Part shown: positions 6,756-51,949 of the stretch, in pieces
How positions within the stretch are numbered: the stretch's first letter is position 1
Layout: every line of letters begins with the position of its first letter
Source: Clostridia bacterium
GTDB taxonomy: Bacteria; Bacillota; Clostridia; Christensenellales; CAG-138
Direction: 5' to 3'
DNA: 64,000 nt
NCBI GenBank assembly: GCA_003246365.1
Contig: QKAN01000213.1
Span: 1 to 64,000, forward strand
The notes under the pieces: generated by a model
Seen by the model: only the letters and a program-made list of their open reading frames with translations
What the model was told of the DNA's origin: nothing
The model's database searches: none
Program-made: the position numbers and the translations under genes

Positions 6756-9083
6756 TTAAAACTTGATGACCTCTTCCACAAACACGCGCGCAATGCGAGG
6801 ATCAAACTGCGTTCCTGCATTCTTTAAAATCTCCGCTATTGCAGCTTCCTTGCTGCGCTGCTGACTATAGATGCGGTCGTTTGTCATCGCGTCGTACGCA
6901 TCCACAACTGCGAGAATTCGAGAGAGAATCGGTATCTCCTCTCCTACCAGTCCCCGCGGATATCCCTTGCCGTCCCAACGTTCATGATGCGAGAGAATAT
7001 ACTCCGAAATCGGAGCCAGATCAACATTGTTTTGCGCAATTCGGAACCCGATTTCCGGGTGTTTTCGCATTTCTAGCCATTCTTCGTCCGTCAACGCGCT
7101 GGGTTTTTGCAGAATCGAATCGTTAATTCCAACTTTACCGATATCGTGCAGCATTGCAAAGAGCGACATTTCGTCCATCTCTTTGGCAGAAATGCCGAGA
7201 ATATTACCTACCTTTTCGCAAGATTCGCGCAAACGTTCGGCGTGTTCCTCGGTTTCCTCGCTCTTTGCCGCAAGCGTAGAAAGCAAAGCATTGATGACAC
7301 TGCTGCGAAAGCTCTTTTCAATCATCAGTTTCCGCCGATACGTTAACTGTTCCGCATCCCGCAGTACGTTTCGTATATCGTCTTCCGTCTCGCTCTTAAT
7401 TGCGTACCCAAGCGCAATACTAAGTTGAAGCTTATTGTCGCTCTCCTCCACGCATCGAGATGAAATTTTTGCAATCACTTGATTCGCTTCCTGTGCGGTA
7501 GCGTCGGGCAGCAGAATCAAAAATTCGTCTCCGCCCCAACGGCTGACAACGCCCAGTTCTCCGGTGCTTTCGGTTAATATCGACGCGATCTTTTTGATAA
7601 AGTGGTCGCCCTCATTATGACCAAATGCGTCGTTGATCAGCTTTAATCCGTTCAAGTCGCCCATGATCAACGCACATTGCAGTTCCGGGTTTTCTTCGTA
7701 TTGCTTGAGCTGTTCTTCCATATACCAGCGGTTATACAGGCCGGTCATGGAGTCATGGGACATGATGTGCTCAATCTTATCCCGCTGTTGTTTTTCCGGC
7801 GTAACGTCACGGAATACCATTACAACGCCGTAAATCGTTCCGTTTTGATCTCGAATCGGCGCAGCTCCGTCCGCAATCGGTATCTTCATGCCAGATTTGT
7901 TAACGAGGGCTGTATGATTCGCAAGTCCTACAATCTCTCCGGTTTCAAGCACTTTCTCAATCGGCGAAGCAACGCGTTTTTCGGTTTTTTCATTGATTAA
8001 ATACAATACATCCGAGAATTGCGCGCCGATCGCCTCGTCTCCCCACCCGGACATTTTCCTCGCAGTGGGGTTCATCAAGGAGATTGTGCCGTCCATGCCG
8101 GTTGCAACAACGCCGTCGCCGATCGACTGAAGCGTAATTCTCATGAGTTCTTTTTCATGCATCAGTTCAGCGGTCTTTTTTCGAACCTCTTTTCGCAGAC
8201 GGTAATTCCACAAAATAATCGCAATAATAACCACCGCAATTATGGCTGTACCGATCAATACGTATTCTATGAAGTAAGACAAATAGATAAATGAACCTTC
8301 TCTTCCATACCATTTGTCGTCAATTCTATTCAGCTGATCTGTGGAGATTTTGGCAAATCCGTCTTCCACCAAGTTTAACATCGCCATATCGCCTTTTGCT
8401 ACGGCACGATGAAATTCGCCGGAGTAAAGCGACTGACTGCGACTAAATTCTTTTGCGATCCCTTTTTGATAAAGAAAATACAACGCAGGCGGTTCATCGA
8501 TCACAAAAACGCTGATCGCTCCGTCCTTTGCTGCATCTACAATTGATTCATAGCTTGGATACGCCTCGATATCCGTCACTCCGGCAGCCTGCAAAATTGA
8601 GATGCAGTTGTCCTCCGCCTTTACCGCAACGGTAAACCCGCGCAAAGATTCCGCGTTTGTAATTCCGCTGATGCTGTTGCTGTGAAATATCGGTACGTCA
8701 ATTGTTGCGTAAGCTTTTGTAAAATCCAGCCAGGTGTCACGCTCTTCATTATAGAAAATGGTGTCGATCACATCGTATTCGCCATTCTTCATTCCGGTGA
8801 GCGCATCCGCCCAATCCATTGCGTGAATTTCAGCGGTAACGCCGGTTTCCTTGCTCCACAGCGCCCACTGGTCAACAAGAATTCCTTGCAATTCGCCGTC
8901 CGAATTGCGATAAATGTACGGCGGATAGTTGTCGTCCATAACAACGGATATCGTTTTTGTGGAATCCGGAAGCTGAGAGTTGAATCGATCGCGGTACTGC
9001 AAATAAAGCAATCCGGCGACGCTAAACAGCGCGACGAACACGAACACCAGCAGAAGAAAAATCGTATTCTTCTTCAACCTCAA
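6756..9083 (-). CDS. Periplasmic-binding/PAS/GGDEF/HD-GYP cyclic-di-GMP sensor
   Basis: A 775-residue membrane signalling protein. Order: N-terminal signal anchor (residues 8-28), a family-3 solute-binding domain (about 40-260, with DNYPPYIYRNSDGELQGILVD), a second membrane helix (about 270-292), a PAS domain (about 305-430), a GGDEF domain with an intact RWGGDEF motif, and a C-terminal HD-GYP domain with HDIGK and HHERWDGKGYP intact. Both a cyclic-di-GMP synthase and a phosphodiesterase motif are therefore present. The start is TTG with AGAGGTGA upstream; no ATG lies nearby. It probably binds an amino acid or similar solute outside and adjusts cyclic-di-GMP inside; it sits between two amino-acid type importers. 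Confidence 0.88.
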   Translation of the reverse strand: MRLKKNTIFLLLVFVFVALFSVAGLLYLQYRDRFNSQLPDSTKTISVVMDDNYPPYIYRNSDGELQGILVDQWALWSKETGVTAEIHAMDWADALTGMKNGEYDVIDTIFYNEERDTWLDFTKAYATIDVPIFHSNSISGITNAESLRGFTVAVKAEDNCISILQAAGVTDIEAYPSYESIVDAAKDGAISVFVIDEPPALYFLYQKGIAKEFSRSQSLYSGEFHRAVAKGDMAMLNLVEDGFAKISTDQLNRIDDKWYGREGSFIYLSYFIEYVLIGTAIIAVVIIAIILWNYRLRKEVRKKTAELMHEKELMRITLQSIGDGVVATGMDGTISLMNPTARKMSGWGDEAIGAQFSDVLYLINEKTEKRVASPIEKVLETGEIVGLANHTALVNKSGMKIPIADGAAPIRDQNGTIYGVVMVFRDVTPEKQQRDKIEHIMSHDSMTGLYNRWYMEEQLKQYEENPELQCALIMGDLNGLKLINDAFGHNEGDHFIKKIASILTESTGELGVVSRWGGDEFLILLPDATAQEANQVIAKISSRCVEESDNKLQLSIALGYAIKSETEDDIRNVLRDAEQLTYRRKLMIEKSFRSSVINALLSTLAAKSEETEEHAERLRESCEKVGNILGISAKEMDEMSLFAMLHDIGKVGINDSILQKPSALTDEEWLEMRKHPEIGFRIAQNNVDLAPISEYILSHHERWDGKGYPRGLVGEEIPILSRILAVVDAYDAMTNDRIYSQQRSKEAAIAEILKNAGTQFDPRIARVFVEEVIKF

Positions 9084-9291
9084 CCGTCACCTCTCATAAA
9101 ATATTTGAATCGTTTCAAAACAATCAATCACTATTATTTTTTGTGTTTTTTAAAAATATATTTCGACTAATATTATTGATTCTATTGTATTCGGTCTCGT
9201 TTTTCGCGTCAATGCGGAATTTGTATGTCGACTATTCCGGCATCGAATCACTCTTTTTGTGTTGCGCCTCAACATCTGACGCTTGTCCAAA

Positions 9292-9319
9292 ACAAAAGCC
9301 GCCCGAAGGCGGCTTTTGT
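9292..9319 (-). terminator. Terminator of the second liv operon
   Basis: A 12-bp stem ending in GCCGCC/GGCGGC with a tetraloop is flanked by A- and T-runs, so it can work in both directions. It lies just after the minus-strand livF stop at 9351. Confidence 0.85.
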
Positions 9320-9350
9320 TGAATTGAATATTGTGTTGATCCAGTTTAGA

Positions 9351-10061
9351 TCAGGTTCCCAGATAGGCCGCTTTGACAGCCTCGTTGACCAGGAGCTCTT
9401 TTCCGGGGCCGGTCATGGTAATTCGCCCTGTCTCAAGCACATAACCCGTATGCGCCGTTGAAAGCGCCATATTTGCGTTTTGCTCGATCAGGAGGATCGT
9501 AACGCCACGTTTGTTGATCTCCTTGATGATGCTGAAAATATCGCGCACGATCAGCGGCGCAAGACCTAGGGATGGTTCGTCCATCATCATCAACTTCGGC
9601 CTGCTCATGAGCGCGCGTCCGACCGCAAGCATCTGTTGTTCACCGCCGGAGAGCGTTCCGCCCGCCTGCCAGTTTCTTTCCTTCAGTCTGGGGAATAGTT
9701 CGTAAACCCAGTTGATATCGGGTGTGATGTCGTCTTTTCGCATATATGCGCCGACACGGAGGTTTTCGTAGACCGTTAAATCAGGAAAAATGCGGCGGCC
9801 TTCCGGCACAAGCGTAATTCCGCGGCTGACAATCATCGTCGTGTCTTTCCCGGCGATATTTTCCCCCTCAAACTCGATCGTACCGCTTTTGGGTTTTACC
9901 AGTCCCGCAATCGCGCGTAATGTGCTGCTCTTTCCCGCGCCGTTTGCGCCGATCAACGTTACGATATCGCCCTTCGGCACGTCAAAGCTGATGCCTTTTA
10001 CCGCCTCGATACCGCCGTAGTTTACCTTCAGGTCCTTGATGCTGAGTATGATGTCGCTCAT
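9351..10061 (-). CDS. livF: Branched-chain amino acid ABC transporter ATP-binding protein LivF (second copy)
   Basis: A 236-residue ATPase with Walker A GANGAGKS, signature LSGGEQQML and Walker B LMMMDEPSLGLAP. It differs enough from the first LivF in the same window that the two look like separate lineages, not a recent duplication. The start ATG overlaps the stop of livG by 4 nt (coordinates 10058-10061). It is the final gene of the minus-strand liv set, and a strong terminator follows at about 9300. Confidence 0.93.
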   Translation of the reverse strand: MSDIILSIKDLKVNYGGIEAVKGISFDVPKGDIVTLIGANGAGKSSTLRAIAGLVKPKSGTIEFEGENIAGKDTTMIVSRGITLVPEGRRIFPDLTVYENLRVGAYMRKDDITPDINWVYELFPRLKERNWQAGGTLSGGEQQMLAVGRALMSRPKLMMMDEPSLGLAPLIVRDIFSIIKEINKRGVTILLIEQNANMALSTAHTGYVLETGRITMTGPGKELLVNEAVKAAYLGT

Positions 10062-44551: not shown

Positions 44552-44598
44552 AGAAAAAGCGAATGAATCCTATTTATATCGAAAGCGGGGCGAAAAAC

Positions 44599-46071
44599 AT
44601 GAACCATCGGCGCATCACAAAGCCGGTTATCGGCGCTTTTTTCGCCACGCTCGCCATCTGCGCCGCGCTTTCGGCCTATATTGAATACGGCAGACGCGCG
44701 CGCGAAGACGACCAGATGAAGTTCATCGCGAGCACGGTCAGCGCGCAGGCATACGAAGTGCTTTCCGCGCAGCTGAACAAAGCGAAAACGCTGGAAGCGT
44801 TCATCGTTCAGAACGAAGGCGGAACCGACGGGTTCGAGCGCGTTGCGCGGCTGCTCGTAACCGACAGCACCGTGCGAAACGTGTTGCTCGCGCCAAACGG
44901 AATCGTAAGCGACGTATATCCCCTCACGGGAAACGAGAGCGTAATCGGTCATGACCTCACCGGCGAGAACGCAGGCGACCGGGAGGCGCAGGCCGCCATC
45001 GACCGCGGAACCATGATCATGGCGGGTCCGTTTACGCTCGTACAAGGCGGACTCGGTATCGCCGGCAGATTGCCGATCTATTTGAACGGTACCTTCTGGG
45101 GCATCGTCTCCGTCACGCTGAATTATCCGGATGCGCTGGACGGTCTCACCGCGCCGGACACCGTTGAGCAGCAGGGCTTTGCCTGCCGCATCTGGCGCGT
45201 CAATCCCGACGCTGGCATTGAACAGACCATACTGCAAACAGGCGAAGGTATACAAAGCCGCGCTTTTGATTACGCGTTTCCAATCTATAATTCCGAATGG
45301 CATGTGACCGTTTCCCCCGAAAAGCCATGGTATACAAACACAACCGTTTTGCTCTCCGCTTTGGTGAGCTTGTTGCTGAGTTTTTCTGTTGCGGCGGGCG
45401 TGTATAACACCAGCACCATTCGCCGCATGGAGAAAGAAGCCGCCGAGGGTCGCATCCGCGCACTGCAAAAGCAGGTGGAATACGACCGCACAAACGTGCT
45501 GTTAACGCAGATCAGCTCCCACTTTTTTTATCATACGCTCAACGCCATTCAGGCATTGATCATACTCGACCCCGACGCCGCATACCGAATGACGGAGCAT
45601 TTTTCCCGTTTTTTGCGCTTTAAGGTAGACAGCGTGAGCGCGGAAGACGGCCTTGTTCCGTTTCGTGAAGAGCTGCGCACGGTTCGCGCCTATGCGGAGA
45701 TCAACCGCATCCAGTTGCAGGATCGGTTAACGCTGGAATACGAAGTAATCGACGCAGATTTCCTGATTCCCGTGCTCACGGTGCAGCCTGTTGTGGAAAA
45801 CGCAATTATACACGGCATCAAACCCAAGGTCGGCGGCGGAACGGTTAAACTCAGCCTCTCGCACGAGGACGGCGCATATATCGTTCGCGTCAGCGACGAC
45901 GGCGTGGGTTACACGCCGGGCGATGAAACCAGCGAGCACTCCGTCGGCATACAAAACATCCGCACGCGCATGGAGCAATACCCCGGCTGTTCGCTCAGCG
46001 TGGATAGTAAACCCGGACGCGGCACGGTGGTTACCCTGCGGTATGCAGAGCACCTCGGGAAGGAGACGTAA
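44599..46071 (+). CDS. CHASE-domain sensor histidine kinase (LytS/HPK8-like core)
   Basis: A 490-residue membrane kinase. Two membrane helices (about residues 8-24 and 255-275) enclose an extracellular CHASE domain, recognised by LLAPNGIVSDVYPLTGNESVIGHDL (here in two stretches). The cytoplasmic part has the His_kinase motif QISSHFFYHTLNAIQA, with the usual NPHFLYNTLN changed to SSHFFYHTLN, and an ATPase domain with VVENAIIHGI and DDGVGY. The stop overlaps the response regulator by one base. CHASE domains bind small ligands such as adenine derivatives in other organisms. Confidence 0.85.
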   Translation: MNHRRITKPVIGAFFATLAICAALSAYIEYGRRAREDDQMKFIASTVSAQAYEVLSAQLNKAKTLEAFIVQNEGGTDGFERVARLLVTDSTVRNVLLAPNGIVSDVYPLTGNESVIGHDLTGENAGDREAQAAIDRGTMIMAGPFTLVQGGLGIAGRLPIYLNGTFWGIVSVTLNYPDALDGLTAPDTVEQQGFACRIWRVNPDAGIEQTILQTGEGIQSRAFDYAFPIYNSEWHVTVSPEKPWYTNTTVLLSALVSLLLSFSVAAGVYNTSTIRRMEKEAAEGRIRALQKQVEYDRTNVLLTQISSHFFYHTLNAIQALIILDPDAAYRMTEHFSRFLRFKVDSVSAEDGLVPFREELRTVRAYAEINRIQLQDRLTLEYEVIDADFLIPVLTVQPVVENAIIHGIKPKVGGGTVKLSLSHEDGAYIVRVSDDGVGYTPGDETSEHSVGIQNIRTRMEQYPGCSLSVDSKPGRGTVVTLRYAEHLGKET

Positions 46072-46868
46072 TGAAAACAATACTTGTTGACGATATGGCG
46101 CTGGATATGCAGCTATTGGAGCTCAAGTGCGCAGATATGCCGGAGATTGAAATCGTCGGAAAATTCACCGTCCCTGAGGAGGCAATTTCATTTGCCGCAA
46201 CGCACGACGTGGAGTTTGCGATGCTAGACATCGACATGCCCGGCATGAACGGCATCGAATTAGCCATGCGCCTTCGCGAACTGCGCCACGACATCATCAT
46301 CGTGTTTATCACAGCGCACCCGCGCTTTGCCGTTCAGGCGTTTCAGATGAAGGCCGACTACATGGTGTTTAAGCCCTTTGACCGGGATGATATTCAAGAT
46401 GTGCTGGAGCGCGCGCGCCTACTGCAGAACAGACAGAAAAAACGCGTTCAATTTCATACGTTTGGCAATTTTGAAATGCTCGTGGACGGAAAACCCGTTC
46501 GGTTTTTATCCGCCAAAGCAAAGGAGCTTATGGCGCTATGCGTGTTTTACGAGGGTCGCAGCGTCGGAATATACGACATCATCGAATCACTCTGCGAAAG
46601 CAGCGAAAACAAGACCGCCGAAAACACCGGTTATCGGCGTACAATCAAAGAACTCACCGACACGCTGAAAGCCTGCAACGCGGAAGAAATATTCGTGCGC
46701 GAGCGCGGCAGCTGCCGCATTAAAAAGGAACTAGTTTCCTGCGATTATTATGATTTCTGGGCAGGCAAAACGGACGCCGTTTCCCGCTTTGACGGACGTT
46801 TTATGAGCGACTACGCCTGGGCGGAATCCGCTATCTACCGCATGTGCGAAAAAAAAGGCCTGTCCTGA
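46071..46868 (+). CDS. Response regulator with winged-helix (SARP/OmpR-like) output domain
   Basis: A 265-residue regulator. The receiver (1-120) has VDDMALD, Asp53 in AMLDIDMPGMNG, FITAHPRFAV and the lysine in VFKPFD. After a short linker, residues 130-230 (FHTFGNFEMLVDGKPVRFLSA, then KAKELMALCVFYEGRSV) form a winged-helix DNA-binding domain of the OmpR/SARP type, ending FMSDYAWAE. Such domains bind 7-bp direct repeats at 11-bp period, and such repeats are found directly downstream at 46956 and 47092. Confidence 0.87.
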   Translation: MKTILVDDMALDMQLLELKCADMPEIEIVGKFTVPEEAISFAATHDVEFAMLDIDMPGMNGIELAMRLRELRHDIIIVFITAHPRFAVQAFQMKADYMVFKPFDRDDIQDVLERARLLQNRQKKRVQFHTFGNFEMLVDGKPVRFLSAKAKELMALCVFYEGRSVGIYDIIESLCESSENKTAENTGYRRTIKELTDTLKACNAEEIFVRERGSCRIKKELVSCDYYDFWAGKTDAVSRFDGRFMSDYAWAESAIYRMCEKKGLS

Positions 46869-46955
46869 TTCCCTCTAATTTCGCTGCAAATCAGTATTGT
46901 CTTCGCTAAAAATCACTGTTAAATCTGAAAAAAATCATATATGATCCGCCAAAAC

Positions 46956-46988
46956 CGTACGGTTCTCGTACGGTTTGTGTGCTATATT
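46956..46988 (+). promoter_or_regulatory. Tandem heptamer repeats and -10, copy A
   Basis: CGTACGG at 46956-46962 and again at 46967-46973 (4-bp spacer, 11-bp period), then 9 bp, then TATATT at 46983-46988. There is no separate -35. The layout equals a PhoB/SARP-type activator promoter. Confidence 0.7.
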
Positions 46989-47091
46989 AATTGGCAAATA
47001 GTTTTCCGGATCGCTGCACTATGCCGCTAAAGTTCGGAAACGGAATAAAAATTGCATATATGCGCCTGTCGGCAATGAAACAATGACGTTT

Positions 47092-47124
47092 CGTACGGTT
47101 TTCGTACGGAACGTTTGTTATATT
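47092..47124 (+). promoter_or_regulatory. Tandem heptamer repeats and -10, copy B
   Basis: CGTACGG at 47092-47098 and 47103-47109, then 9 bp, then TATATT at 47119-47124. Spacings are identical to copy A. It is 162 bp before the ABC transporter gene at 47286. Apart from these two elements the gap 46869-47285 holds no gene. Confidence 0.7.
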
Positions 47125-47285
47125 TTTCATAGATTCGATTGCCGGATACCGATTGAGAGAAACCCGGACAAAACAGGCATATCGCACTTGCGAACAACAT
47201 TCCGTTGAACAAAATCAAAAAAAACAAAGCATAGTAAAGCATAATATATCTCACATACGCTGGAAACGGGAAGGGGACGTGGTCA

Positions 47286-48794
47286 ATGAACGAAATCCTC
47301 CGCATGGAGCATATCAGCAAGCAGTTTGGTGACTTTTACGCGAATAAGGACATCTGTTTTGATGTACAAAAAGGCGAAGTACACACGCTGCTGGGCGAAA
47401 ACGGCGCGGGCAAAAGCACACTCATGAACGTGCTCGTCGGTCTCTATCAGCCGACGGAAGGTTCCATTTTTCTCCGCGGCGAAAAGGTACACATCGAGTC
47501 CCCTGCACAGGCGGTTCGCCTCGGCATCGGCATGGTGCACCAGCACTTCATGCTTGTGGAGGCCATGACCGTTATGCAGAACATCCTGCTCGGCGACAAG
47601 CGCTATAAGGGTCTTTTCATCAAGCACGACGCACGCAGGAAAGAGATTTTGGAACTCTCCTGGCGTTACGGCTTAAACGTAGACCTCGAGGCAAAGATTA
47701 CGGATATCTCCGTCGGTGCGCAGCAGCGCGTAGAGATTTTAAAGGCGCTCTATCGCGGCGCGGAACTTCTCATTCTGGACGAGCCGACCGCCGTTTTGAC
47801 CGATATCGAAGTCGAGGGACTCTATTCCATCATCGAAAAGCTCAAAAACGAAGGCAAAAGCATCATCTTCATCAGCCACAAAATGCGCGAAGTGCTGCAT
47901 GTTTCAGACCGCGTCACCATTCTCCGCGCCGGCAAAACCATCAAGACGCTCAAAGCGAGCGAGACGGACGGCAAAGAGCTGGCGAACCTCATGATCGGGC
48001 GTGAGCTGATCGAGTGCGATTATGAAAAGGTGGAATCCACGCAGGAACCGGTCATCGAGCTTAAGAACGTGGACTTCAACAAAGCCTCCAAGCACAACGG
48101 GTTAAACGATGTTTCCCTCGTTGTGCGCAAAGGAGAAGTGCTCGGCGTTGCGGGCGTTGACGGAAACGGACAAAGCCAGCTCAGCCAGATCGTTACCGGC
48201 GTAACAATGGCGGAGGGCGGCGAAGTCATCCTCAAGGGCTGCAAAATTTCCCGCGTTACCGCAGCGGATTTCATCAAAAAGAACGTTTCGCATATTCCAG
48301 AAGACCGCAACCGCATGGGTCTTGTCGGCAACATGACGGTGGAAGAAAATATTCTGCTCAAGAGCACGCAGAACTGCGCGTTTTGCGACGCGAACGGCTG
48401 GCATCTGAAAAAGAAAGCCATGCACGCCTACGGCGAAAAAATGCGGGCGAAATACGACATCCGCTGCCAGTCCATGGATCAGGAGATCCGCTCCCTCTCC
48501 GGCGGAAATCAGCAAAAGGTCATTCTTGCGCGCGAACTGGAAGCAAGCCCGGATCTGCTTGTCGCGGTACACCCGACGCGCGGTCTCGACATCGGCGCAA
48601 CGCGCTACGTGCGCGACACGATGATCGCCGCGCGGGACAAGGGCTGCGCGGTGCTGCTCATCAGCGCGGATTTCGACGAGGTATTGCAAATGTCGGACCG
48701 CATCATCGTGATGTTCGAAGGTAAGATCATGGGCGAATACTCCGGCAAGAACCCGCCGATTCAAACAATCAGCCTCGCGATGGCAGGCAAGTAA
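47286..48794 (+). CDS. nupO: Nucleoside/BMP-type ABC transporter ATP-binding protein
   Basis: A 502-residue protein with two ABC domains in one chain, as in the YufO/NupO and RbsA-like families. Domain 1 has Walker A GENGAGKS, signature ISVGAQQRVEILKAL and Walker B LLILDEPTAVLTD; domain 2 has the degenerate GVDGNGQS and LSGGNQQKVILARE. With the two permeases and the BmpA-like lipoprotein that follow, it most likely imports nucleosides. Upstream lie the tandem repeats of the regulator. Confidence 0.88.
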   Translation: MNEILRMEHISKQFGDFYANKDICFDVQKGEVHTLLGENGAGKSTLMNVLVGLYQPTEGSIFLRGEKVHIESPAQAVRLGIGMVHQHFMLVEAMTVMQNILLGDKRYKGLFIKHDARRKEILELSWRYGLNVDLEAKITDISVGAQQRVEILKALYRGAELLILDEPTAVLTDIEVEGLYSIIEKLKNEGKSIIFISHKMREVLHVSDRVTILRAGKTIKTLKASETDGKELANLMIGRELIECDYEKVESTQEPVIELKNVDFNKASKHNGLNDVSLVVRKGEVLGVAGVDGNGQSQLSQIVTGVTMAEGGEVILKGCKISRVTAADFIKKNVSHIPEDRNRMGLVGNMTVEENILLKSTQNCAFCDANGWHLKKKAMHAYGEKMRAKYDIRCQSMDQEIRSLSGGNQQKVILARELEASPDLLVAVHPTRGLDIGATRYVRDTMIAARDKGCAVLLISADFDEVLQMSDRIIVMFEGKIMGEYSGKNPPIQTISLAMAGK

Positions 48795-48804
48795 GGAGGA
48801 ACAC

Positions 48805-49866
48805 ATGCAAAAAACAAAACTGCTCAACGTGCTCATCCCGGTGCTTTCCATCCTGCTGGCGTTCCTCGTCGGTATGCTGATTATTCTCTCGCTGGGCGCG
48901 AATCCCATCGAAGCACTAGGTTATCTGATGAAGGGCGCGTTTGGCTCCAAAACCAACCTCGCCAACACGGTCGTGCGCTCCATGCCGCTGATCTTTACGG
49001 GTCTTTGCACCTGTTTTGCATATCGTTGCGGCGTGTTCAACCTCGGCGGCGAAGGACAGTTTCTCGCAGGCTCCATGGCAGCCATCACGGTTTCTCTGCT
49101 CATCGGTCACGAGGGCTGGTGGGTGACCATTCTCGCCATCATCGCGGGCACAATCGCCGGCGGTTTCTGGGGACTGTTGCCGGGCATCTTAAAAACCTGG
49201 CGCGGACTCAACGAAATGATCACCACGATCATGTTCAACTATGTCGCGACGCTTTTCATGGGATATCTGTATACCACCGCGCTGCGCGAAGGCAGCGTGC
49301 CGCAGACAGCGCCTGTTCCGGATGCCACAAAGCTCGGCCGCATCATTCCGGATCTGCGCATCACCTGGGGTATCGTCATCGCGCTCGCCGTCGGCATCGG
49401 CATTTGGTATTTCCTCTTTTATACATCCAAGGGATTCCAGCTCCGAGCGGTCGGGTTTAACCCGATTGCCAGCAGCTACAACGGCCTTTCCGTCAAGAGA
49501 TACATGTTGGTCTCCTTCATTATCTCCGGCGCAATCGCGGGTCTTGGCGGCGCGGCGGATATCCTCGGCACGCAGTTCCGCCTCATCAGCGGCTACGGCA
49601 GTGGTTATGGGTTCGACGGCGTGGCAATCGCGCTGATTGCGCAACTGCATCCGATTGCGACCGTCATTGTTGCATATTTCTTCGCGGTTCTTCGCGTTGG
49701 CAGCACGACGATGCAGGTTGGCACAGGCGTGCCCACCAGCGTAATCGACATCATTCAGGCGTTGGTCATCATCTTTGCCGTCGCCGGTTCGTCAATGATG
49801 CATCTGCCGAAGATCCGGAAATTCATCATGAGCCTCTTCGAAAAACGGGAGGTAAAACAGTTATGA
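48805..49866 (+). CDS. nupP: Nucleoside/BMP-type ABC transporter permease
   Basis: A 353-residue membrane subunit with about nine helices. CRCGVFNLGGEGQFLAGS (with TFCAY-like start) and LNEMITTIMFNYVA are signatures of the NupP/YufP permease family. It follows nupO by 10 nt with TAAGGAGGAACAC before the ATG. Confidence 0.88.
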   Translation: MQKTKLLNVLIPVLSILLAFLVGMLIILSLGANPIEALGYLMKGAFGSKTNLANTVVRSMPLIFTGLCTCFAYRCGVFNLGGEGQFLAGSMAAITVSLLIGHEGWWVTILAIIAGTIAGGFWGLLPGILKTWRGLNEMITTIMFNYVATLFMGYLYTTALREGSVPQTAPVPDATKLGRIIPDLRITWGIVIALAVGIGIWYFLFYTSKGFQLRAVGFNPIASSYNGLSVKRYMLVSFIISGAIAGLGGAADILGTQFRLISGYGSGYGFDGVAIALIAQLHPIATVIVAYFFAVLRVGSTTMQVGTGVPTSVIDIIQALVIIFAVAGSSMMHLPKIRKFIMSLFEKREVKQL

Positions 49867-49936: not shown

Positions 49937-50866
49937 ATGAATTGGAATGTAATGTCCGAAGTGCTTATTTCCGCCGTGCGTATGGCGACGCCGCTTCTGT
50001 TCGTTGCCCTTGCGGAGCTCTATTCGGAGCGCGCAGGCCTTGTTAACATCGGTCTCGAGGGGATTATGGCGTTTGGCTCCCTCGTTGGCTTCCTTGTGTG
50101 TTACTGGACGGGAAATCCGTTTCTCGGCGTGCTCTGTGGCGCGCTCGGCGGCGTGTTGGTCAACATGATATACGCCTTCTGCACCATTACGCTTGCGGGT
50201 CAGCAAATCGTCTACGGTATGGCGCTCAATATTTTCGCGCCTGCTCTGGCGTCGTTTATCTACCGAATCGTGTTCGGGGTCAGCTCCACCCTCGCGCAGG
50301 CAACGCTCATGAAAACCGTTTCGATCCCCGTGCTAAAGGATATCCCTTTCCTCGGAAAGTTGCTTTTTGACCAGACGCCGATTGTGTACGCGGTCTATCT
50401 GCTCGTCATCCTGACGGCAATCTATTTTAACCGCACAAAATCGGGCCTCAACTACAAAGCCGTCGGCGAATATCCAAAAGCCGCCGAAACGATGGGCATC
50501 AACGTGGTTCTGCACAAGTATATTGCGAGCATCATCTGCGGTTTTCTCGCGGGCATGGGCGGCGCGTACCTGACCACCTGCTACATCAACACCTATTCCG
50601 ACGGTATCGTTGCCGGTCGCGGATTCATCGCGCTCGCAGCCGTCATCTTCGGCCGCTGGTCGGCCTCCGGTGTATTGCTCGCCTGCCTGCTGTTCGGATT
50701 TTTCGACGCGCTTCAGCTGCGCCTTCAGGTCGGCACCGACCTGCTGCCGTACCAGCTGTTCCAGATGATTCCTTATTTGATGACGCTGATCGCGCTGACC
50801 ATCTTTGGCAGCAAAATTGCCGGACCAAAGTCCAAAGGCAAGCCCTACTACCGCGAAGAGCGGTAA
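49937..50866 (+). CDS. nupQ: Nucleoside/BMP-type ABC transporter permease
   Basis: The second permease, 309 residues from ATG 49937, which has AAGGAGGCCGCCAGATC upstream and starts at the family's usual N terminus; the frame opens at 49904. Marks: LYSERAGLVNIGLEGIMAFG and GRGFIALAAVIFGRW. A 70-nt gap separates it from nupP. Confidence 0.88.
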   Translation: MNWNVMSEVLISAVRMATPLLFVALAELYSERAGLVNIGLEGIMAFGSLVGFLVCYWTGNPFLGVLCGALGGVLVNMIYAFCTITLAGQQIVYGMALNIFAPALASFIYRIVFGVSSTLAQATLMKTVSIPVLKDIPFLGKLLFDQTPIVYAVYLLVILTAIYFNRTKSGLNYKAVGEYPKAAETMGINVVLHKYIASIICGFLAGMGGAYLTTCYINTYSDGIVAGRGFIALAAVIFGRWSASGVLLACLLFGFFDALQLRLQVGTDLLPYQLFQMIPYLMTLIALTIFGSKIAGPKSKGKPYYREER

Positions 50867-50959: not shown

Positions 50960-51949
50960 ATGAAGAAGATTCTTGCTATCGCGCTCGTACTCTGCCTGGC
51001 CGTCGGCATGCTCGCCGGTTGCGCCAAAGAAGCCGCTGCCCCTGCTGCGGAAAAAACCTATAAGGTTGCCATGATCTGCGACTCCAGCATTTCGGACGGC
51101 GGCTGGGGTGCTGCCTGCTACAACGGCATGACCGCCGCTGCCGCAGAGCGCGGTTGGGAAACCGCCTACACCGATTCCATCGATCAGTCCGCCTATGCGG
51201 ATACCATGATCAGCTACTGCGACCTCGGCTATGACATGATCTTTGCGCCGGGCAACCAGTACAGCGACGCTGTTGCGCAGGTTGCGGCGGACTATCCGGA
51301 CATCGCGTTTGCGGTGCTCAACGGCTCCACCTCTCTGCCCACCGACAACATCATGAGCATCCTGCCCAACGCTGACCAGATCGGCTCCATCGCGGGCATC
51401 ATCGCCGGCGTCATGAGCAAAACCGGCGTAATCGGCTTCATCGGCGGCATGGAACTCGACACCACGAAATCCAAGCTCGCGCACTTTGAATCCGCCGCGC
51501 AGGTCATCAATCCTGACATCAAAGCCGTTTCCGCCTATGCCGGTTCGTTCAACGATACCGCAAAAGGTATGGAACTCGCCGCTTCCATGATCAATGAAGG
51601 CGCCGACGTATTCTTTGGCGATGCTTCCGCCGTCGACTCCGGCGCGCGTCAGGCAATTGACCAGGCCAACGGCGACAACGTAACCATCATCGACATCGGC
51701 CAGCCGGCGGACCTGCTCGGTCAGAATCCGTGCGTTGCTTGCAGCGTCGTCACCGACAACGCCCGCATGATCGCTATCTGCCTCGAAAACGTTGAAAACG
51801 GCACGTTCGGCAACGACGTCGTCTTCGGCAGCCTCGAAAATGGCGCGGTCTTCCTCGGCTCCTTCAACGACGCTCTGATCGACGCCGACATGCAGGCGAT
51901 GATCGTAGATTACGTCAAGCAGCTGCAGGACGGAACCTTCGGCAACTAA
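50960..51949 (+). CDS. BMP-family substrate-binding lipoprotein
   Basis: A 329-residue binding protein of the BmpA/PnrA/MED family. The lipobox is LAGC with Cys21. The body has VAMICDSSISDGGWGAACYNGM (short form of the family opening), FAPGNQYSDAV, and GFIGGMELDT. In characterised relatives the ligand is a purine nucleoside. It is last in the operon, though many species place it first. TAGGAGGAAAAGGAC precedes the ATG. Confidence 0.9.
   Translation: MKKILAIALVLCLAVGMLAGCAKEAAAPAAEKTYKVAMICDSSISDGGWGAACYNGMTAAAAERGWETAYTDSIDQSAYADTMISYCDLGYDMIFAPGNQYSDAVAQVAADYPDIAFAVLNGSTSLPTDNIMSILPNADQIGSIAGIIAGVMSKTGVIGFIGGMELDTTKSKLAHFESAAQVINPDIKAVSAYAGSFNDTAKGMELAASMINEGADVFFGDASAVDSGARQAIDQANGDNVTIIDIGQPADLLGQNPCVACSVVTDNARMIAICLENVENGTFGNDVVFGSLENGAVFLGSFNDALIDADMQAMIVDYVKQLQDGTFGN

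Follow-up and report, generated by a model that had tools for sequence, protein, structure and literature searches.

The locus studied here raises the question of whether two copies of a promoter-proximal repeat place a nucleoside-type importer under the control of the two-component system encoded next to it. We analyzed a window of 64,000 nucleotides from a Clostridia bacterium (contig QKAN01000213.1), in which an earlier note had reported CGTACGG twice at an 11-bp period, 9 bp before TATATT, at 46956 and again at 47092. These coordinates are exact (Table 1), and we call the two copies sites A and B. Since a TG stands one base ahead of TATATT in both, sites A and B are extended −10 promoters. 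With TATATT set at −12 to −7, the repeats start at −39 and −28. No recognizable −35 element is present at either site, a sigma-70 promoter scan gave no match to them on the + strand, and an Rfam search returned no RNA element. Just 3′ of promoter B, TAGATTCGATT-N6-TACCGATT (47130-47154) shows almost no variation among six genomes of the genus and likely lies within the 5′ end of the importer mRNA. The sequence GGGAAGGGGACGTGGTCWATG around the importer start codon (47268-47288) is strongly conserved, and a similar sequence occurs in other genera.

Table 1. Genes and promoter features of the importer locus, in window positions
Feature	Position	Strand	Basis
Sensor histidine kinase: CHASE extracellular domain, His_kinase (LytS type, PF06580), HATPase_c	44563..46071	+	Pfam
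Response regulator: receiver (1-121), predicted SARP-type winged helix and first BTA helices (122-265)	46071..46868	+	Pfam, AF2 models
Inverted repeat overlapping site A, arms AAACCGTACG / CGTACGGTTT	46952..46976	+	perfect, 10 bp
Site A, SARP-type box CGTACGG-TTCT-CGTACGG	46956..46973	+	sequence; kept in G001, G002, G003, G006
Parts of site A	CGTACGG 46956-46962, TTCT, CGTACGG 46967-46973, 9 nt, TATATT 46983-46988
Extended −10 of promoter A, TG-C-TATATT	46980..46988	+	sequence
Hairpin overlapping site B, 13 pairs, loop GTTTT	47085..47115	+	flanks covary across relatives
Site B, SARP-type box CGTACGG-TTTT-CGTACGG	47092..47109	+	counterpart in 12/12 regulator-bearing family genomes
Parts of site B	CGTACGG 47092-47098, TTTT, CGTACGG 47103-47109, 9 nt, TATATT 47119-47124
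Extended −10 of promoter B, TG-T-TATATT	47116..47124	+	sequence
Importer ATPase, two ABC_tran domains, RbsA/Nup type	47286..48794	+	Pfam, NCBIfam
Importer permease 1, BPD_transp_2	48805..49866	+	Pfam, NCBIfam
Importer permease 2, BPD_transp_2	49937..50866	+	Pfam, NCBIfam
Substrate-binding lipoprotein, BMP/PnrA-like (PF02608)	50960..51949	+	Pfam

The genes on either side of the sites define the candidate partners. According to Pfam, the downstream operon has the complete make-up of a BMP/PnrA importer, with a PF02608 lipoprotein, an RbsA-like ATPase, and two permeases. We set aside the NCBIfam transporter names, of which the nearest is a putative B6 importer, as all scores fell far below the cut-offs; “nucleoside-type” is accordingly a statement about the family to which the sequences assign the importer and not about its substrate. 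Upstream, the CHASE/His_kinase/HATPase_c trio of the kinase is present in six kinase orthologues as well. In one locus (L120, G023:C193), approximately 350 bp (9037-9387) breaks the kinase alignment between residues 292 and 298.

The regulator had been described as a receiver joined to an OmpR/SARP-like winged helix. By itself, its C-terminus matches no Pfam family, including Trans_reg_C (PF00486), which 18 of 35 homologues match at E up to 1. Structure comparison with the full regulator was dominated by receiver domains, and the C-terminal domain was therefore modeled alone. The best structural matches of this AF2 model (pLDDT 92) are EmbR (Z 13.9 over 140 residues, 2.7 Å) and AfsR (Z 13.3), in agreement with that description, and PhoB-type domains reach a Z of at most 9.4. 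The model stops after three helices of the BTA region, which leaves the BTA domain incomplete; in AfsR, a BTA domain of seven helices follows the winged helix (PMC10936776). Given this shorter domain, the AfsR BTA contacts may be missing in the regulator studied here. Its N-terminus is a receiver and not the SARP domain found there in the SARP family. The predicted SARP-like fold, the shortened BTA region, and the receiver together suggest a SARP-like regulator with a receiver in front rather than a standard SARP.

The position of the repeats points in the same direction. The AfsR box consists of two 11-bp direct repeats, at −40 to −30 and −29 to −19, which overlap the −35, and the 3′ repeat of SARP boxes generally lies 8 bp from the −10 (PMC10936776). 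At sites A and B, as in the boxes of a sister clade discussed below, direct repeats at an 11-bp period overlap the −35 region. The distance from the 3′ repeat to the −10 is 9 bp when counted from the CGTACGG heptamer and 8 bp in the sister clade, a value that depends on how the heptamer is framed. The CGTACGG repeats lie within 1 bp of the AfsR register. The note had likened the geometry to both PhoB and SARP activator sites; the SARP half of this comparison fits in the modeled fold and in the register to the −10, while PhoB is the more distant analogue.

We then ask whether box and regulator belong together across genomes, using an orthologue cut-off of at least 60% identity and a motif search that allowed up to two mismatches; most of the genomes compared are incomplete MAGs. 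Regulator orthologues (61-93% identity) are present in genomes of the family and in named assemblies, Oscillibacter sp. PC13 and O. valericigenes among them. The relatives share the composite motif CGTACGG-TTYY-CGTACGS-N6-TG-N-TATAMT, with the extended −10 at a fixed distance, both near the orthologues and at distant positions of the same genomes. Across 19 non-redundant sites, the core, the spacer TT, and TG-N-TA are near-invariant at fixed spacing, and the TG is invariant in all of them. The second copy of the repeat has G or C as its seventh base, and in two relatives it reads CGAACGG. Within the family, the motif occurs in 12 of 103 genomes; these are the very genomes that carry a regulator orthologue, and the 91 others all lack it (Fisher p 6.5e-16, which is a guide only, as related genomes are not independent). 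None of 390 other genomes of the class contained it. In the Oscillibacter family it turned up in 4 of 300 genomes, every time next to an orthologue; each of two Oscillibacter genomes checked has a single site. A near-match in G107 lies at a contig end, with too little 3′ sequence to show a −10. Altogether, the same box accompanies the same regulator in about twenty related genomes.

These counts bear on the alternative that the sites are chance repeats in front of ordinary σA promoters with no link to the regulator. Single 7-N4-7 repeats are indeed common in the window, with 13 perfect ones of any heptamer per strand against a Markov mean of 5.7. A pair with the same heptamer within 500 bp arose in 0 of 60 simulated (Markov) windows, and exact CGTACGG-N4-CGTACGG is confined to sites A and B across the 3.4-Mb genome. 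The one-to-one co-occurrence with the regulator and the conservation across many genera leave this explanation with practically no weight.

Genomes in which the genes have been rearranged provide natural experiments, and in these the link between regulator, site, and operon persists when the genes come apart and when the transporter is exchanged. G002 and G003 carry the regulator and the transporter on different contigs, with the two boxes, spaced 138 bp, still ahead of the transporter; the 11-bp period is kept in such genomes as well as in those with the regulator beside the transporter, which was the check that the note had proposed. In G023 (L120), the regulator orthologue (71%) adjoins a non-orthologous BMP importer (lipoprotein 27%, ATPase 44%) in the order BMP-P1-P2-ATPase, and the box precedes this operon. 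The reverse case is G018 (genome 84% complete), where the transporter ATPase is 72% identical and neither a regulator orthologue nor an upstream box is found. In the Oscillibacter group, G036, and G075, the box lies between the kinase and regulator genes, ahead of the regulator and importer genes, so that the regulator would activate its own gene. The box also precedes the regulator in L127, where no transporter lies within the fetched flank. Two further observations concern individual loci. In G005 (L077, C69, upstream of 508), site A is missing and the sequence just 5′ of site B is unrelated, which suggests that a rearrangement had its endpoint beside the box, with neither the box nor its −10 disrupted. 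In L023 (G036:C113), near 1540, the regulator orthologue carries an in-frame TAG at codon 14 (LKTILVDDMLLDL*LFELKC) and is otherwise open, which may reflect a pseudogene, a sequencing error, or recoding.

How the regulator would read the box is a separate question. It had been cautioned that CGTACG is palindromic, and aptly so, since sites A and B are both inverted repeats as well (at site B, GACGTTTCGTACG/CGTACGGAACGTT, with two G-T pairs among the 13). Because CGTACG is self-complementary, direct and inverted recognition are inseparable by sequence within the CGTACG clade. We therefore turned to more distant regulators (28-39% identity) and searched around them for any 7-N4-7 repeat with a −10. 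This sister clade has the box TTGGACA-TTTR-TTGGACA with a −10 about 8 bp on, non-palindromic and placed as in the CGTACG clade. It occurs in 19 of 36 loci, compared with 4 matches in shuffles of all loci. Six genomes contain 1-7 TTGGACA sites each and the reversed control none; because the genome pattern itself contained TG and TA and tolerated one mismatch, the search partly favored an extended −10 there. Since the sister boxes are non-palindromic, the regulator family most likely reads direct repeats. Among the sister regulators of rumen Clostridia (L131-L161), the boxes before extended −10 elements follow YTGGACA-TYTR-TTGGACA (for example, L134:14045, L137:10847, L148:10820, and L157:10823), and the genes after them, as read from the sequence, appear to encode STAS-domain-like proteins, ABC transporter parts, a second response regulator, and a MATE-like exporter. 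Near Paenibacillus homologues (L167, L169), ~1.2 kb beyond the start of the regulator, TTGTAAG-like repeats of 11-bp period stand ahead of sequences resembling a −10, in numbers too few to judge.

The alternative is that the regulator binds as a symmetric dimer to an inverted repeat, i.e., a dyad operator. The perfect 10-bp inverted repeat at site A and the 13 pairs at site B are consistent with this, as is the second copy CGTACGC of the Oscillibacter group, which perfects the symmetry. Moreover, the flanks match as dyads: at the 19 non-redundant sites of the CGTACG clade, 95 of 133 possible pairs are formed, compared with 64 expected (the permutation mean) and a maximum of 86 in 20000 permutations. 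However, the flanks match within each site and differ in sequence between sites, which points to base pairing and not to base-specific protein contact. In addition, the spacer GTTYY is not symmetric and its orientation follows that of the promoter, the sister-clade boxes are plain direct repeats without a dyad (p 0.5), and head-to-tail binding is the mode of SARP and OmpR-type domains. We consider a dyad operator unlikely and favor direct-repeat recognition in the CGTACG clade, a preference that leans on the sister clade and on the predicted fold.

The dyad-type covariation outside the repeats, which the earlier note overlooked, is nevertheless not explained by SARP binding. The excess of flank pairing persists when shuffling is performed within clades only, and two-sided pair changes fill 35 cells, whereas shuffles give 14.7 and slid controls 8-18. 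The flank stems have folding energies of −10 to −25 kcal/mol. No flank hairpins were found in the sister-clade boxes (p 0.5), from which it follows that the permutation test is not biased upward. Since the flanks are kept in complementarity and not in sequence, nucleic-acid pairing is indicated rather than protein contact. The self-complementary flanks are a clade-specific addition that may serve as a weak terminator limiting read-through or may be a by-product of mutation. Taken further, the element could mainly be an intrinsic terminator for the upstream kinase/regulator gene, with the direct repeats following from the stem. The stable stems with compensatory flank changes, the flagging of site B as terminator-like, and the position soon after a same-strand gene in most loci fit this explanation. 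Yet a terminator needs neither the invariant CGTACG-GTTYY-CGTACG core nor its fixed distance to TGnTATAAT; a modest share of the bases that follow the stem are T (2-5 of 8); the upstream gene in G002 and G003 is unrelated and seems to have terminators of its own; and presence of the element tracks the regulator and not the upstream gene. A terminator at site B would also be awkward in this genus, since transcription starting at promoter A would have to run through hairpin B. We therefore hold a primary terminator function to be very improbable. For the paired flanks, as opposed to the boxes, template switching at the CGTACG...CGTACG palindrome could perfect the flanks without any function. Such perfecting is known for quasi-palindromes, and it agrees with flanks that vary freely in sequence yet stay complementary; flanks re-paired around bulges (G032, G023, and G075) and pairing beyond clade effects suggest selection instead, without proving it. 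Template-switch homogenization of the palindrome is as simple an explanation as a terminator role, and we regard a functionless by-product as a serious possibility, though not the one we would bet on. It is also conceivable, if somewhat doubtful, that ~36 bp perform two jobs, as a SARP-type box on duplex DNA and as a terminator-like hairpin in read-through RNA, so that the promoter would be shielded from upstream transcription and open only upon the signal of the CHASE kinase.

Returning to activation through direct repeats, we consider it likely that the CHASE kinase and the REC-SARP regulator activate the BMP-type importer via boxes A and B, with positive autoregulation in the Oscillibacter group. 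Sites A and B would be two activator-dependent promoters of the importer operon, each box having a pair of direct repeats, 11 bp each, that spans about −39 to −18 instead of a −35, followed by the extended −10. The kinase would sense an extracellular ligand through its CHASE domain and phosphorylate the response regulator, two protomers of which would then occupy the repeats next to each other in head-to-tail orientation. The binding expected of a SARP-type box is by a side-by-side dimer that contacts sigma region 4. The dimer would recruit RNA polymerase to a weak promoter and induce the importer; in the Oscillibacter group, where the box precedes the regulator gene, the regulator would also activate itself. 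We infer regulator binding to the boxes, its dependence on phosphorylation, and activation rather than repression. The proposal that the kinase/regulator pair probably activates the transporter gains support from the co-occurrence, the fixed spacing, the fold model, and the cases of gene separation and transporter exchange. The kinase ligand is probably a nucleoside or a related importer substrate. CHASE sensors in plants bind adenine-type hormones; a literature search on CHASE domain, nucleoside, two-component, and ABC transporter returned only cytokinin-related papers.

If correct, this model supplies a DNA target for two-component regulators that join a receiver to a SARP-like domain, for which we found no described site in the literature searched. 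Nutrient import in gut and sediment Clostridia would then join the processes governed by promoters of SARP-type architecture, and a CHASE sensor would be linked to a nucleoside-type importer. The TTGGACA repeats provide a second motif, which marks sites across several rumen genomes.

Among known systems, the importer shares with Bmp/PnrA-type nucleoside ABC importers the two-domain ATPase, the two BPD_transp_2 permeases, and the PF02608 lipoprotein, with its closest NCBIfam names below cut-offs. REC-wHTH-BTAD regulators (COG3947, “SAPR family”) have the receiver and the SARP-type winged helix in common with the regulator studied here, in which the BTA part is shortened; our literature searches found no binding site described for these regulators, no paper on SAPR with BTAD, and none giving CGTACGG as a regulator site. 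With PhoB and the Pho box, the system shares 7-bp repeats, 4-bp spacers, a −35 replaced by the activator, and a receiver joined to a winged helix, but the fold match is weaker (Z 9.4 versus 13.9), and the kinase is of the LytS type with a CHASE sensor, unlike the PhoR-like HisKA kinase of PhoB. The closest likeness is to SARP boxes (the AfsR afs box and the DnrI/ActII-ORF4 heptamer repeats), which also consist of repeats of 11-bp period over the −35, a few base pairs from the −10, and to SARPs themselves, whose fold the modeled DNA-binding domain shares. Unlike SARPs, the regulator is a two-component protein with an N-terminal receiver and a truncated BTA region, found in Clostridia; the half-sites are palindromic, with flanks that can form a hairpin; and the target is a nutrient importer instead of antibiotic genes. 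Very probably, the kinase/regulator pair switches the importer on in the manner of the Streptomyces antibiotic-gene activators.
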